Assembly: GCA_017617655.1 (NCBI GenBank)
Contig: JAFZVU010000045.1
Coordinates: 1-52,155 of the forward strand
Direction: 5' to 3'
DNA: 52,155 nucleotides
DNA from: Bacteroidales bacterium
Lineage (GTDB): Bacteria; Bacteroidota; Bacteroidia; Bacteroidales; UBA932
Of the stretch, positions 1,936 to 32,101 are shown one piece after another; position 1 is the stretch's first letter, and each line of letters opens with the position of its first letter. Position numbers and translations under genes: made by a program. The notes beneath the pieces were generated by a model. It was not told where the DNA came from. It worked only from the letters and a program-made list of their open reading frames with translations, and made no database searches.

Positions 1936-3630
1936 CTAGAACTTATAGATTGCTGCAGACACCGGGGAGATGCTGACTACGTCCCCTTTCTTAGTCTGCT
2001 TGTAAGTGCATTTCTTGTAGTTGCCGCCTATCAGCTCAGGCTTCGAAGGCTCTGAAGGAAGGGTGACTGTCACTGCTTTTGCGGAAGGGTTCAGCACCAC
2101 GTAGCAGCGCTCGCTTCCGAGCTTCCTCTCATACACCATCGGATACGGCTGGTCGAGCGAGCTGACCAGTCTCCATGAGGCATCTGCGCCCAGAGCCTTG
2201 ACCTCCTTGCGAAGCTGGAGCATCGCACGGACGTAGTACAGCAGCGAATTGTGGTCAGCCTCAGCCTTCTCGACTGTCATGCGGTTCGGGTCGGGATCCT
2301 GAGGGATGTATATCTTCTCAATGGGAGCCGTCGAGAAGCCGGCGTTTGTGGTGGCATTCCAGAGCATGGGGATGCGGCAGCCAGCCCTGAAACCGGAACC
2401 ATCAGTTGAAGGAGCTGCGGGATTTTGCTTGAGGCCGATCTCGTCGCCGTAATAGATGAACGGCACGCCCGGCATAGTCAGAAAGAAGGTCATGGCTACC
2501 TTGAGCTCTTCAGGATTCGTGCGACCTTCAGTGCAGACGCGGTTGAAGTCGTGGTTGCCGGTAGGCATGCAGACATAGCCCTTGCCTTTGACGGCATCGT
2601 ACTGATAAGTATAGAGGTCATACCACTCTTTCAAGGTTCCGGCGCCAGCCTCGTCGAAATAAGGGACAGACTGTGTGGCATTCGGGCCGAAACCGCGGCG
2701 GCCGTAGAAGAACAGTGTAGAGTAGTTGTAGCGGCCGTCGTGGCAGAAGAAGTCGAGGTCGAATCCGGCTTCGATAGACTGCTCGGGATTGAACCACTCG
2801 GCGATCAGCACTCCTTCCGGATATTCGCTGCCGAACCATTTCATCAGGTCGTCCTTCCATAACTTTATTGTTGCAGACTTGTCAGGGTCGTTCTTGACAA
2901 GGCTGGCTGCCATGTCCACCCTGAAGCCGTCAACACCTTTGTCCATCCAGAAGGATATTATGTTCTTGAGCTCGCGTCGCATAGACATCGGGCCGGGAGC
3001 GTCGACAGCCTGTTCCCAAGGGTGCTTAGGATTGGGATTAGCGAAACCGAAGTTAAGCGCAGGCTGGGTGTCAAAAAAGTTCTTGATATAGAAAGGCCCG
3101 CGCGGGGCGTCCGTGGCTACGAACTTGCTGAGCAGAGCAGCGTCGGGGCCGGTGACTCCCTCAGGTTTGAATGAGGGCCAGATATAATAGTCGGAGTAGC
3201 GCAGGTCCGGAGCTTCCTTCGACTGCAGGAACCATTCGCACTGGTCGGATGAGTGTCCGGCCACGAGGTCCATCACCACCTTGATGCCACGCGCATGAGC
3301 CTGACGGATCAGTTCCATGAGGTCGGAATTCGTACCGAAACGCTTGTCCACGCGGTAGAAGTCGATCACGTCATATCCACCGTCAGTCCATCCAGACACA
3401 TACACCGGGTTCAGCCAGATAGCCGTCACCCCTATCGACTGTATATAATCAAGACGAGATATTATGCCCGGGATATCCCCGATGCCGATGCCGTCGCTGT
3501 CCTGATATGAAGAGGGATAGATCTGATAGAAAACCGCGTCGCTAAGCCAGCTCGGCTGCTGAGGATTCTGCGCCGACACTCTTGCCATGCATCCCGCCAG
3601 CATCAGAAAGATGCAAATGATTCTTTTCAT
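1936..3630 (-). CDS. Secreted GH13 alpha-amylase family glycoside hydrolase
   Basis: A 564-aa protein with a Sec signal peptide (about 1-20, ending VSA-Q). The GH13 (beta/alpha)8 barrel is complete: region I DLVAGH (121-126), region II GFRVDM with nucleophile D239, region III LIAEWF with acid/base E278, region IV GNHD with D361. A C-terminal beta-sandwich follows (about 475-564). The start of the barrel (DAVFYQIYPSSYQDSDGIG) resembles alpha-glucosidase and oligo-glucosidase-like GH13 members, so it probably cleaves alpha-1,4 or alpha-1,6 glucans or oligosaccharides in the periplasm. The subfamily cannot be fixed by eye. It is the first gene of a tight group with hypB, an odd partner, and its likely promoter (3653-3684) touches a REP hairpin. 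Confidence 0.9.
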   Translation of the reverse strand: MKRIICIFLMLAGCMARVSAQNPQQPSWLSDAVFYQIYPSSYQDSDGIGIGDIPGIISRLDYIQSIGVTAIWLNPVYVSGWTDGGYDVIDFYRVDKRFGTNSDLMELIRQAHARGIKVVMDLVAGHSSDQCEWFLQSKEAPDLRYSDYYIWPSFKPEGVTGPDAALLSKFVATDAPRGPFYIKNFFDTQPALNFGFANPNPKHPWEQAVDAPGPMSMRRELKNIISFWMDKGVDGFRVDMAASLVKNDPDKSATIKLWKDDLMKWFGSEYPEGVLIAEWFNPEQSIEAGFDLDFFCHDGRYNYSTLFFYGRRGFGPNATQSVPYFDEAGAGTLKEWYDLYTYQYDAVKGKGYVCMPTGNHDFNRVCTEGRTNPEELKVAMTFFLTMPGVPFIYYGDEIGLKQNPAAPSTDGSGFRAGCRIPMLWNATTNAGFSTAPIEKIYIPQDPDPNRMTVEKAEADHNSLLYYVRAMLQLRKEVKALGADASWRLVSSLDQPYPMVYERKLGSERCYVVLNPSAKAVTVTLPSEPSKPELIGGNYKKCTYKQTKKGDVVSISPVSAAIYKF

Positions 3631-3684: not shown

Positions 3685-3776
3685 TGCGGTAGGTCAGCAA
3701 GATTATGTACGACCTACCTCAAAATAAGCCGTTTTTGCGGTAGGTCGGTCGAAAAAAGCAACGACCTACCGCACTT
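3682..3776. repeat. Paired REP-like hairpins, copy A
   Basis: Two successive imperfect palindromes with arms GTGCGGTAGGTC and GACCTACC(G/T)C: 3684-3720 and 3735-3774. They are separated by a linker AAAATAAGCCGTTTTT. The outer ends AAGTGCGG and CCGCACTT make the whole unit palindromic as well. Two more copies lie at 8198-8286 and 10127-10221. Loop sequences differ between copies while arms and linker are kept, as expected of REP/BIME elements mobilised by a RAYT. Confidence 0.85.
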
Positions 3777-8197: not shown

Positions 8198-8286
8198 GTG
8201 CGGTAGGTCTGCTAAAAACTGTCCTACCTACCGCGAAAAAGGCCGATTTTGCGGTAGGTCGTCCCAAAAGACGCAGACCTACCGCA
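8198..8286. repeat. Paired REP-like hairpins, copy B
   Basis: Hairpins 8198-8235 (arms GTGCGGTAGGT and CCTACCTACCGC) and 8250-8286 (TGCGGTAGGTC and GACCTACCGCA), with linker AAAAAGGCCGATTTT. It has the same architecture as copies A and C. It sits in the gap between the holin-like gene and the convergent alkD-like gene. Confidence 0.85.
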
Positions 8287-9164: not shown

Positions 9165-9190
9165 ACTTAAACGTTTAATATACGACTAGG

Positions 9191-9198
9191 CAAAGATA
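9191..9198 (-). promoter_or_regulatory. Candidate -7 box of the alkD-like gene
   Basis: The minus strand reads TATCTTTG, an exact TAnnTTTG match, 26 nt before the ATG at 9164. A TTTG lies 23 nt further upstream (9225-9222), slightly farther than usual. It forms one arm of an inverted repeat with the box at 9205-9212. Confidence 0.5.
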
Positions 9199-9204
9199 AG
9201 GCAA

Positions 9205-9212
9205 TATCTTTA
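9205..9212 (+). promoter_or_regulatory. Candidate -7 box of RAYT1
   Basis: TATCTTTA, 24 nt before the RAYT1 ATG. It is the mirror arm of the alkD box, in AAAGATA-N6-TATCTTT (9192-9211). No good -33 box is visible, so this promoter is weak or needs activation. Confidence 0.3.
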
Positions 9213-9236
9213 CCTCGCTGGCAAAAGTGCCGGTTG

Positions 9237-10115
9237 ATGATTATGAAAGACTTTTATTTGCTCACTACGGAACATCTCGAAAATGGCCTATGGTTCCGTG
9301 ACGACAGTGACTTTAAGGTGGCCATGAATTATGTGGCTATCCAGGCCGCTTGTTGTCCTGATGTTGACGTCCTTGCTTTTATCCTGATGTCGAATCATGT
9401 GCATTTCGTGTTGTATGGTAGACTAATGGATGTAGAAAGGTTTATTTGCCAGTTTAAAAGACGGTATTCACAGTATTTCAGAAACAGGCATGGTGTCCAG
9501 TCGTTTCTACGCAGAAATAAAGTGGATATACGCCCAGTTAATTATGTAGATGATTCACTGAGAAGAGCGATAGCTTATGTCCAGATGAATTGTGTTGCTG
9601 CGAATATCTGTTTGCACCCGAGCCAGTATCAGTGGGGAACCGGCAATTCATTCTTTACGCAATCGAGGTTGTCAGGTAGACCCATAAGCGATTTGTCTGA
9701 ACGGGCACGAGAAAGGATTCTGCGAAGCAATTGCGATTGCCTGCCAAAGGACTGGATACTCAGCGAAGATGGGTATATCTACCCACAATCATATATAGAT
9801 ATTCGTACTGTCGAGACAGTGTATAGAACTCCCAGACGGATGAATTACTTCCTTTCCAGTTCATCAAAAGCCAGGACGCGGATTGAGACTGCCGAGGACA
9901 AACTTCCATCGTTCAGAGACCAGACCATCCTATCAGTTCTACCGGAATTATGTAAAAGTATGTTCAATAAAAACTCATTTGAAGATTTGTCGGAGACAGA
10001 ACAGAACGAATTCGTTCGACAAGTCCGTTTCCGCTTCAGCGCAGATGCCAACCAGATAGCACGAGTCTGTGGAATAACTTATGCTGAAGCAGCACGTCTG
10101 TTGGATAATTACTGA
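9237..10115 (+). CDS. REP-associated tyrosine transposase RAYT1 (Y1/IS200-like HUH domain)
   Basis: A 292-aa single-domain HUH endonuclease. Seen: the metal-binding HxH in LMSNHVHFVLYG (H54, H56), the catalytic tyrosine helix AIAYVQMNCVAANI (Y114) and the partner YQWGTGNSFF. A Bacteroidetes-type C-terminal region ends in a helix-turn-helix-like ANQIARVCGITYAEAARLL (about 270-288), also present in RAYT2. RAYTs cleave and join single-stranded REP hairpins carrying GTAG-type tetranucleotides; here REP pair C begins 12 nt after the stop and every arm holds GGTAG. Start: a TTG at 9234 also fits, but ATG 9237 (or 9243) is preferred. No IS200/605 ends are seen, so it is probably a domesticated RAYT, not an insertion sequence. 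Confidence 0.88.
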   Translation: MIMKDFYLLTTEHLENGLWFRDDSDFKVAMNYVAIQAACCPDVDVLAFILMSNHVHFVLYGRLMDVERFICQFKRRYSQYFRNRHGVQSFLRRNKVDIRPVNYVDDSLRRAIAYVQMNCVAANICLHPSQYQWGTGNSFFTQSRLSGRPISDLSERARERILRSNCDCLPKDWILSEDGYIYPQSYIDIRTVETVYRTPRRMNYFLSSSSKARTRIETAEDKLPSFRDQTILSVLPELCKSMFNKNSFEDLSETEQNEFVRQVRFRFSADANQIARVCGITYAEAARLLDNY

Positions 10116-10126
10116 TTTAATCGAAC

Positions 10127-10221
10127 GGGTGCGGTAGGTCGTTACTTTATTTGACAGACCTACCGCGAAAATGGCTTATTTTGCGGTAGGTAGCACCAAA
10201 TTTGGCCGACCTACCGCACCC
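10127..10221. repeat. Paired REP-like hairpins, copy C (next to RAYT1)
   Basis: Hairpins 10127-10168 (GGTGCGGTAGGTC and GACCTACCGC) and 10181-10221 (TTGCGGTAGGT and GACCTACCGCACCC), with linker AAAATGGCTTATTTT. The linker reverse-complemented (AAAATAAGCCATTTT) matches copy A better, so copy C appears inverted relative to A and B. Confidence 0.87.
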
Positions 10222-30289: not shown

Positions 30290-30358
30290 AAAACCCTCCT
30301 CTTTCGCGATAAAATGGCAAAAACACCCCGTTGCAGCCGCCGGGCAGCAGAGGTTGGA

Positions 30359-30421
30359 GGGTTATCCTCGTGAGGCGAAGCGAGCCACCGGCAGAGCTCG
30401 CTGCCTCGCGGGAGATAACCC
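30359..30421. repeat. Large bulged hairpin between iorA and the RAYT2 unit
   Basis: GGGTTATC at one end pairs with GATAACCC at the other; inside, an AGCGAGC/GCTCGCT stem with GAGGC/GCCTC closes on a loop CACCGGCAGA. About 63 nt in all. A separate AACCCTCC (30292-30299) could instead pair with GGAGGGTT (30356-30363), which overlaps the first arm. It may be a different REP-like element or a transcription stop upstream of the RAYT2 unit. Confidence 0.6.
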
Positions 30422-30472
30422 ATCGTGGCATTTCCTTCATGGTCAGCAATAGCCTCGTGAAGTTTCCTCGTC

Positions 30473-30625
30473 AAACCCAACTTTCACGGATCTGTTGTGA
30501 GCCCTCTGCAGATAGCTACAGAAGGGGCGCCGTGAATCCGTGGCAGGAAATCGTGCCACGGATTTCGCCAATGTGCCCCGCGAGGCCCTCCAGGGCGTGC
30601 TCAGGCAATCCGTGAAAGTCGGGTT
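30473..30625. repeat. Left 153-bp repeat of the RAYT2 unit
   Basis: It has nested palindromes. Outer arms AACCCAACTTTCACGGAT (30474-30491) and ATCCGTGAAAGTCGGGTT (30608-30625) differ by one base pair. The inner stem AATCCGTGGCA (30535-30545) pairs with TGCCACGGATT (30554-30564). The heptamer CACGGAT occurs four times, twice per strand. It is the same length as the right copy, with 11 differences counted by eye (about 93% identity). Confidence 0.92.
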
Positions 30626-30766
30626 GCCATGGTTGAACCCAGCGCAGCAAATACACAAATACTAGTGCAAATTTGGATTTGCGACACAAGGTCAAAAATT
30701 GTCGATAAGGTGCATTCTGATTACACCAGACCGACTATATTAGTGTCCCGACTGCCATTAGCGGCG

Positions 30767-31678
30767 ATGGGCAAAACTATGGACACACAATTCAACAAAC
30801 AACTACAAATCGAGTCAGACCTCGGCCTTGACAAACCATTTGTAAAAGGGCAGACAATAGCAGTCAGCAATTGCTGGCATTTCAGCACGGATGGTAATGC
30901 AGTCGACGCCATGTTCATTGATAAAGATGATTTCCGGGACGGTATGAACCGCATATATCCTCTAATTCAGAGGTATAAGATCACGATACTAGCGTTCTCG
31001 CTGATGGACACCCATATCCATTTTATCCTCCATGGCGCCTTCGACCCATGCAACCGTTTCATTCATGAATATGTGAAACAAACATCATGGGCTATATCCC
31101 ATAGATATGGCGAGCGTCATAAGTTCCGGACAGTCCCCATCAACCATCAGGTAATAGACACTGACCGATATCTTAAGACAGCAATATGCTATGTGATAAA
31201 AAACGCCCCTGTCGGAGGCATTAATTTCAATGCCTATGATTACCCGTGGTCTAGCGCCGCTCTGTATTTCCGCAAGCCAGGACACTGGACTTCTCCCGAT
31301 TGGACAGACAAAACTGACGATTCGGCAATCTGCCAAAAAGACCAGATCATCTTTCCGGGGAGATATGTCGACTATTATCTGGTGGAGAGAATCTTTAAAA
31401 CGCACAAGAGTTTCAACTACTTCATGTGCGTTTCGAAAGAATCAGATGTCGATGAACGTGGTGGAACCATTTCGCGTCTCTCATTGCCCATGCAGGAGAT
31501 GCGCCAGCACAAAACAGAAACATGCTACGAACTGTTCAGAGTGCACAGCATCCGCACATTATCAACGACACAACGTCTTCACCTTGCCAAAGTGCTCAAG
31601 GCCCGATACAACTCTTCCACAAAGCAACTGGCCCGTCTGTGTGGCCTCGTCTACGAGGAAGTATGCAAGATGATTTAA
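30767..31678 (+). CDS. REP-associated tyrosine transposase RAYT2 (Y1/IS200-like HUH domain)
   Basis: A 303-aa HUH endonuclease. HxH is in SLMDTHIHFILHG (H83, H85), the catalytic tyrosine in LKTAICYVIKNAPVGG (Y142), followed by DYPWSSAALYF. The C-terminus ends in STKQLARLCGLVYEEVCKMI, the same helix-turn-helix-like tail as RAYT1; otherwise the two are only distantly alike. The open frame extends to 30629, but that part lies in or next to the left repeat; ATG 30767 or 30779 is chosen. It is the only gene between two 153-bp repeats and inside a perfect 21-bp inverted repeat (30471-30491 and 31833-31853), so it probably acts on these sequences. Confidence 0.87.
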   Translation: MGKTMDTQFNKQLQIESDLGLDKPFVKGQTIAVSNCWHFSTDGNAVDAMFIDKDDFRDGMNRIYPLIQRYKITILAFSLMDTHIHFILHGAFDPCNRFIHEYVKQTSWAISHRYGERHKFRTVPINHQVIDTDRYLKTAICYVIKNAPVGGINFNAYDYPWSSAALYFRKPGHWTSPDWTDKTDDSAICQKDQIIFPGRYVDYYLVERIFKTHKSFNYFMCVSKESDVDERGGTISRLSLPMQEMRQHKTETCYELFRVHSIRTLSTTQRLHLAKVLKARYNSSTKQLARLCGLVYEEVCKMI

Positions 31679-31697
31679 CGAGACGGCTTCCGATCCG

Positions 31698-31850
31698 AAA
31701 CCCGACTTTCACGGATCTGTTGTGAGCCCACTGCAGATAGCTACAGAATGGGCGCCGTGAATCCGTGGCAGGAAATCGTGCCACGGATTTCGCCAATGTG
31801 CCCTACAAGGTCCTCCAGGGCATGTTCAGGTAATCCGTGAAAGTTGGGTT
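31698..31850. repeat. Right 153-bp repeat of the RAYT2 unit
   Basis: A direct repeat of 30473-30625. Outer arms AACCCGACTTTCACGGAT (31699-31716) and ATCCGTGAAAGTTGGGTT (31833-31850); inner stem 31760-31770 with 31779-31789. The variant base in each outer arm matches the opposite arm of the other copy, so both the outermost and innermost arms of the whole unit are perfect inverted repeats. Confidence 0.92.
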
Positions 31851-31971
31851 TGAGCAATGTCGGATGCAGGATAGTGTTGTTCCTTGATACGTGTTGGTAC
31901 TTACGAAGTGTAAGGGATGGATAATGTGACAGTTTTGACATGTGCATACGGATTGGCACGGGTGTTGATTA

Positions 31972-32101
31972 ATATTGCGCCTGTAACCGCAATGAAAGCA
32001 ACGATTACAGTTATTATTGCATCAATTATATGTGCATTACGGCCATGGCGCTTACCGGATTTATGTATACTTAATTGATTACACACGCGCAGGCGCAATA
32101 T
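31972..32101. repeat. 12-bp inverted repeat with 106-bp spacer upstream of the fimbrial operon
   Basis: ATATTGCGCCTG (31972-31983) and CAGGCGCAATAT (32090-32101) are perfect inverted copies around an AT-rich spacer. The geometry is like that of short invertible segments in Bacteroidales, but no recombinase gene is adjacent and no consensus promoter is seen inside. The rest of the gap 31854-32216 holds only the candidate -7 box at 32142. Confidence 0.65.

Follow-up and report, generated by a model that had tools for sequence, protein, structure and literature searches.

The 153-bp repeat that stands on either side of the gene RAYT2 in a Bacteroidales genome is probably a non-autonomous, REPIN-like mobile element, and RAYT2 is most likely the enzyme that mobilises it. 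The window that we analysed is a stretch of 52,155 nucleotides (contig JAFZVU010000045.1 of assembly GCA_017617655.1), which belongs to the host genome G000 and carries, besides RAYT2, a second RAYT gene of another class, RAYT1.

The RAYT2 unit and its two repeats

RAYT2 lies in a 1383-bp unit (30471..31853) between two 153-nt direct repeats that are 93% identical to each other, and the unit ends in perfect inverted repeats of 21 nt (30471-30491 and 31833-31853). The original prediction had described this unit with its perfect 21-bp inverted ends and its 153-bp direct repeats of equal length, each of them a palindrome inside a palindrome with the heptamer CACGGAT present four times per copy when both strands are counted. 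All of this was borne out. The outer arms measure 18 nt in the left copy (94%) and 19 nt in the right copy (95%), an inner stem of 11 bp (AATCCGTGGCA/TGCCACGGATT) is common to both, both copies are 153 nt long, and all eight core sites could be located as follows.

30473..30625, + strand: left 153-bp REPIN-like element; arms reach 30471; covariance model 152.3 bits; fold z -5.2
30485..30491, + strand: core CACGGAT, left element, outer left
30536..30542, - strand: core CACGGAT, left element, inner left
30557..30563, + strand: core CACGGAT, left element, inner right
30608..30614, - strand: core CACGGAT, left element, outer right
30779..31678, + strand: RAYT2 gene; 299 aa from the ATG common to relatives; the longest ORF begins at 30629
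31698..31850, + strand: right 153-bp REPIN-like element; arms reach 31853; covariance model 151.6 bits; fold z -7.5
31710..31716, + strand: core CACGGAT, right element, outer left
31761..31767, - strand: core CACGGAT, right element, inner left
31782..31788, + strand: core CACGGAT, right element, inner right
31833..31839, - strand: core CACGGAT, right element, outer right

The layout of the element is core, 44 nt, core', 14 nt, core, 44 nt, core', where core' is the reverse complement of the core, and each 44-nt linker contains an inverted repeat of its own. Folding of 150 of the 153 nt of each copy as single-stranded DNA gave z-scores of -7.5 (right) and -5.2 (left), and an equally stable fold was reached by 0/200 shuffles for the right repeat and by 0/200 for the left. 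Repeat analysis and fold, together with the covariation discussed below, describe two inverted REP-like palindromes that are able to form one hairpin. Since each repeat is itself palindromic, the perfect inverted ends of the unit follow from this architecture and provide no independent evidence for an insertion sequence.

Further repeats border the unit. A GC-rich hairpin repeat (GGTTATC...GATAACC) at 30347-30428 lies just upstream of the RAYT2 unit and is separate from it; dispersed copies of this hairpin occur in the genomes G000, G001, G004, G007 and G022, and in G022 it is found near several solo elements. Just downstream of the unit, a 12-nt inverted repeat (ATATTGCGCCTG / CAGGCGCAATAT) spans 130 bp (31972-32101).

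The RAYT2 protein has the HUH motif DTHIH and a candidate catalytic tyrosine within CYVIKNAP. DTHxH and Y155 are invariant in an alignment of RAYT2 with nine relatives, which corresponds to an HUH motif with one tyrosine. RAYT2 remains under the curated cut-offs of the relevant families (Y1_Tnp, 16.5 vs 23 in Pfam; REP_Tyr_transpos, 18 vs 80 in NCBIfam), and at E values up to 1 a weak match to Y1_Tnp is obtained for seven of these ten proteins (best 1.8e-4). Profile comparison relates the RAYT2 group to four RAYT1-class proteins with 99.9% probability; all four match Y1_Tnp (best 4.8e-6). In a separate run RAYT1 and C44 just attain the Pfam cut-off of 23 (RAYT1 scored 21.2 in the former run). 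Searches of solved structures, PHROGs, plasmids, phages and viral contigs returned no match.

RAYT1 is accompanied by quadruple-core elements of its own, and when four-way core identity was scored across 15 chunks of the window, it exceeded 5/9 in two only, the RAYT1 chunk (9) and the RAYT2 chunk (7).

3686..3772, unstranded: solo RAYT1-type element; GTAGGTC at four places; ~4.5 kb from the upstream RAYT1 element
8200..8285, unstranded: RAYT1 upstream quadruple-core element, core GCGGTAGGT; core to core
9171..10115, + strand: RAYT1, second RAYT, class different from that of RAYT2; NHVH motif; stop-to-stop open frame with its stop
10131..10217, unstranded: RAYT1 downstream quadruple-core element, core GCGGTAGGT; core to core

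Solo copies and concerted change of the core

A third copy of the 153-bp repeat stands alone on contig C27 of the host genome, and others are found across the genus. The original prediction had called for a search for such solo copies in the host and its relatives, and was to be abandoned if there were no other copies or only full units with target duplications; as the partner repeat of this RAYT has solo copies in both, neither is the case. A covariance model built from 20 copies (20 of the 21 first copies, with L070 left out for wrong coordinates) and applied to no more than 117 candidates in each genome returned at least 83 matches, which merge over the two strands to at least 50 places in at least eight of the 26 genomes of the genus.

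We extracted 47 of the 50 places. Exactly 153 bp is the length of 43 of the 47, and the remaining elements measure 152, 152, 154 and 131 bp. Judged by coordinates, 17 flank a RAYT of the RAYT2 subfamily and 30 do not, so that copies dispersed apart from such a RAYT gene make up 30/47 of the sample; a contig end lies less than 500 bp away for four of these 30. With unverified open frames of at least 100 aa as a proxy for genes, 22 elements overlap none and 25 overlap one, the frames concerned being mostly of 101-241 aa, and for two elements longer frames reach in from one side. The largest number of places found in any genome is 10, which is a lower bound for draft MAGs and lies under a copy number of tens to hundreds.

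The quadruple-core plan recurs at other RAYT loci with other cores. From 40 loci (L009-L048, the best per genome among a longer match list) we retained 37, leaving out L011 and L015, whose genes are already represented by another piece, and L038, a piece at a contig edge. Four-way identity was at least 7/9 at 21 of the 37 loci as opposed to 0/185 shuffles (0/37 and 0/148; shuffle maximum 6), and 16 loci score under 7. The matches at L032 and L044 were set aside; L044 looks tandem-repeated. Cores in the long layout include ACAGAGCGG, ACAAAGCAG, CGCATTC, CGCAGCGCA, CCGGAACGC, AGGTTGC, CGCGGCGGC, CGCAGCGGC, CACCTTTCC, CACCGGGCG, ACCTTTTCG and TGCGGCAGG, while shorter or differently spaced versions carry GCGGTAGGT (RAYT1 of the window), CGTGCATAC, GCTCCCAAT, GGACTAG or CTCAAAATG; some copies of the plan contain mismatches. 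Many elements of the long class have AACCC/GGGTT at their ends and a central loop rich in A/T, while their cores vary.

The RAYT genes are flanked by cognate repeats that coevolve with them. In a tree of the RAYT proteins, to which the cores were added as labels and from which the grouping was read without a statistic, most loci with like cores fall together: all five CACGGAT loci, both ACARAGC loci, three AGGTWGC loci, both ACCTTT loci, and CGCGGCGGC with CGCAGCGGC. An exception is L025 (CGCAGCGCA), which groups weakly with L027 (CCGGAACGC) and not with the similar-cored L033.

Concerted change of the core is visible in an alignment of 24 elements chosen to span the cores (21 of the 47 copies and three RAYT-flanking elements, several rows being close copies from G007). 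The outer/inner pairing scored 0.467 vs at most 0.127 for slid partners, and the number of cells paired and the score were each reached by 0/500 shuffles; both sides had changed in 18 of 29 pairs, a number reached by 27/500 shuffles. Pairing within the half-element scored 0.750 vs at most 0.202 when slid. Both folds are allowed because all four copies of the core change together. The signal is present across core families only; within the CACGGAT family covariation did not rise above shuffles. One element of G022 (L112 3065-3217, at C1:55964) has its core altered at all four places (CATTAG/CCAATG type), and the G022 RAYT of the RAYT2 subclade is itself flanked by CACGGAT-type elements.

Composites, site comparisons and alternative explanations

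Six copies in G007 have one shorter second element in common on their left, and their right flanks mostly differ (those of 157093 and 156396 resemble each other). Four of the six left neighbours contain the four-fold core CACAGAATG and two contain one-letter variants of it; a further exact CACAGAATG four-fold core adjoins the G007 copy at 165823. All CACAGAATG-type elements of G007 have a half-length of 29 and a spacing of 43, as do those of the C78 RAYT class (CTCAAAATG). The G007 composites are mosaics, in which elements of two RAYT classes stand side by side. At five G007 loci (L114, L115, L116, L117 and L126), composites of CACAGAATG-type and CGCATTC-type elements were observed with nearly fixed spacing.

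In the C78-type class, 14 of 19 loci reach at least 7/9, compared with 0/57 shuffles (maximum 5); two of the 19 are also counted among the 37 above. We had predicted that G007 itself carries a RAYT of the CACAGAATG class. This failed in G007, whose assembly (80% complete) yielded no close RAYT of that class when searched with the C78 protein, and succeeded in G019 of the same genus, where the same search found a close RAYT with a CACAGAATG four-fold core of identical geometry on one side.

A presence/absence comparison with both flanks was possible at a single junction. Between the convergent genes proA and proC (NCBIfam), G001 C223 has an element, whereas G000 C34 has 7 bp in place of 192 bp and matches G001 C223 on both flanks at 94-97% identity. 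For G007, G019, G002 and G004 the similarity to this locus stops at proA, and these genomes therefore say nothing about the junction; G022 C45 shows proA along with a short stretch from the right side, and G002 C50 has the start of a CGCATTCG-type element past proA. The solo element common to G000 C27 and G001 C174 is accompanied by 122 bp that match the left side of the proA insertion, of which about 104 bp are proA coding sequence, and the similarity ends at most 6 bp from the right end of the element. HUH enzymes can transfer flanking DNA on one side. The 122 bp would fit such a one-sided transfer, with segmental duplication as an alternative. Since such a copy presupposes that the proA site was once filled in an ancestor, the state of G000 C34 may be secondary, in that it may have lost its element. 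At the level of sequence comparison, the presence/absence site and the copy with its 122 bp of flanking DNA support mobility.

A different kind of site occurs on C57 of the host genome (L124, about 2762-3370), where a 608-bp mosaic contains, by eye, three different palindromic repeats including the 153-bp element. G001 lacks the mosaic at the corresponding position, and so apparently does G014, where that position is split over contigs. Because the element lies within this mosaic, the C57 site is no test of single-element insertion. A query for empty sites with the two solo copies of G002 C254 found no usable one.

Solo copies could also be remnants of recombination between direct repeats that deleted the RAYT gene, as in solo LTRs, and not products of transposition. 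The flanking copies are indeed direct repeats of high identity, and a deletion has left its scar at the window locus of G014, where one outer arm (~20 bp) is joined to sequence from 31948 on, while G001 has the RAYT unit at this locus. This explanation does not account for the six G007 copies, whose common left neighbour and mostly different right flanks point to short composites copied without RAYT, nor for the C27 copy with its DNA from beside proA, and we regard it as improbable.

Another reading takes the 1383-bp unit for an ordinary insertion sequence that has terminal inverted repeats of 21 bp and of which the 153-bp repeats would merely be the ends. The inverted ends are perfect, and the iorA-like locus of G022 has no RAYT within about 1.7 kb, with the related RAYT on another contig, which indicates that the gene can change place. 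We also looked for a place into which the whole RAYT unit had never been inserted, with the G014 scar as the outcome; the matches in G002 and G004 stop at contig ends, in G002 at the iorA-like gene. Against an insertion sequence, one RAYT of the CACGGAT class was found in the host genome, with no near-identical full copies, and the two RAYTs of G002 are dissimilar (86% and 73% identity to RAYT2). Moreover, the 30 elements that do not adjoin a RAYT of the RAYT2 subfamily, and flanks of the unit at which no target duplication was seen by eye, make us consider this reading hardly probable.

That the repeat is a regulatory RNA hairpin or terminator for RAYT expression, copied by chance, would suit the strong folds and a right copy that begins 19 nt past the RAYT2 stop codon, but is very improbable given copies that flank RAYT on either side or stand by themselves at other sites, a DNA core that tracks the RAYT clade, and no Rfam match in the window (gathering cut-offs) or at two solo-copy loci (E up to 0.1).

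Relation to known repeats and proposed mechanism

The original prediction set the 153-nt repeat against classic REPs of 20-40 nt and found it far larger. Its view of the repeat as the partner of a RAYT stands; the yardstick has to be replaced by the REP doublet (REPIN/BIME), which has been modelled as 71 and 110 bp (PMC3116915). We therefore best read the 153-bp repeat as a REP doublet, REPIN/BIME-like, and not as one oversized REP. The further suggestion of an undescribed class was too strong at class level, since PMC6006769 reports that Bacteroidetes TnpA_REP genes of subclass 2.6 are flanked by secondary structures of an atypical kind, further copies of which occur at other genomic sites. 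An overlap between the 153-bp elements and those structures, which are given in the supplements of that paper, is possible.

In gammaproteobacteria it is established that RAYTs are flanked by REPs and coevolve with them (PMC2817692); cleavage by TnpA_REP beside GTAG-footed REPs has been shown, and RAYT-REP recognition has been dissected in a few gammaproteobacterial pairs (PMC8266576). Like the REPIN/BIME of these bacteria, the elements described here consist of two inverted REP-like palindromes, are dispersed, and have a cognate RAYT flanked by copies. They differ in having linkers of about 17-44 nt between cores where REPIN/BIME have a short loop, in a core-to-core span of about 86-130 nt (153 bp for the whole element in the RAYT2 class), in a low copy number, and in the GT[AG]G foot, which was present at the four hairpin feet tested in 0/24 elements. 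The half-elements, with ~76 nt, also exceed the single-REP size of about 20-60 nt. As GT[AG]G foot, short REP and high copy number are lacking, we call the element REPIN-like rather than classing it as a REPIN.

Other known systems share some of these properties. The REPtrons of TnpA_REP subclass 2.6, or Bertels group 5, are likewise from Bacteroidetes, with an HUH Y1-type enzyme and atypical flanking structures that have copies; the text of PMC6006769 gives them a median of 179 aa, NH[LIV]H and YIH[QN]NP, as opposed to ~300 aa, THIH and YVIKNAP in RAYT2, which falls outside this description. TIRYTs and TIRtrons, as described in PMC3733652, also have a Y1 gene between terminal repeats, some of them double palindromic and some with genomic copies; their GGGGWSAS occurs in three of the 47 elements and in neither of the window repeats, and the quadruple private core was not found among the descriptions that this source offers in its accessible part. 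IS200/IS605 elements resemble the unit in their Y1 HUH-type enzyme and the hairpins at their ends, whereas here there is a hairpin doublet on each side and no multicopy, near-identical transposase. In the open-licence literature, taken without supplements, we found no description of the quadruple-core layout, of a class-specific geometry or of a private core for each RAYT clade.

The element is built of two inverted REP-like hairpins, each formed by a 7-nt core, a 44-nt linker and the reverse-complement core; a central loop of 14 nt connects the two hairpins, and AACCC/GGGTT marks the ends of the element. RAYT2, as a putative Y1 HUH-type enzyme, would most likely recognise the single-stranded element via the four copies of the core, cut near the AACCC/GGGTT ends and move the element to other sites, whereas the RAYT gene itself would stay near single copy between two elements (REPtron). 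By analogy with IS608, one might further speculate that the private core serves as a DNA guide, whose inner copies pair with the outer ones in the half-element fold and thereby set the cleavage site. We consider this rather unlikely, and the four-fold concerted changes of the core, including that at C1:55964 of G022, would be compatible with it. It would then be the element that determines specificity, and changing a single word at its four places could retarget a RAYT.

Altogether, more than 20 RAYT loci from one bacterial family carry repeats of one scaffold, in which a core of 7-9 nt, written four times, is the lineage-specific part. This combination of one scaffold with a lineage-specific core makes both the specificity code and coevolution testable, and it provides a natural test set for DNA recognition by RAYT-type enzymes. 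The mosaics bring together elements from different RAYT classes, and the REPIN idea is extended to large, low-copy, compound elements.
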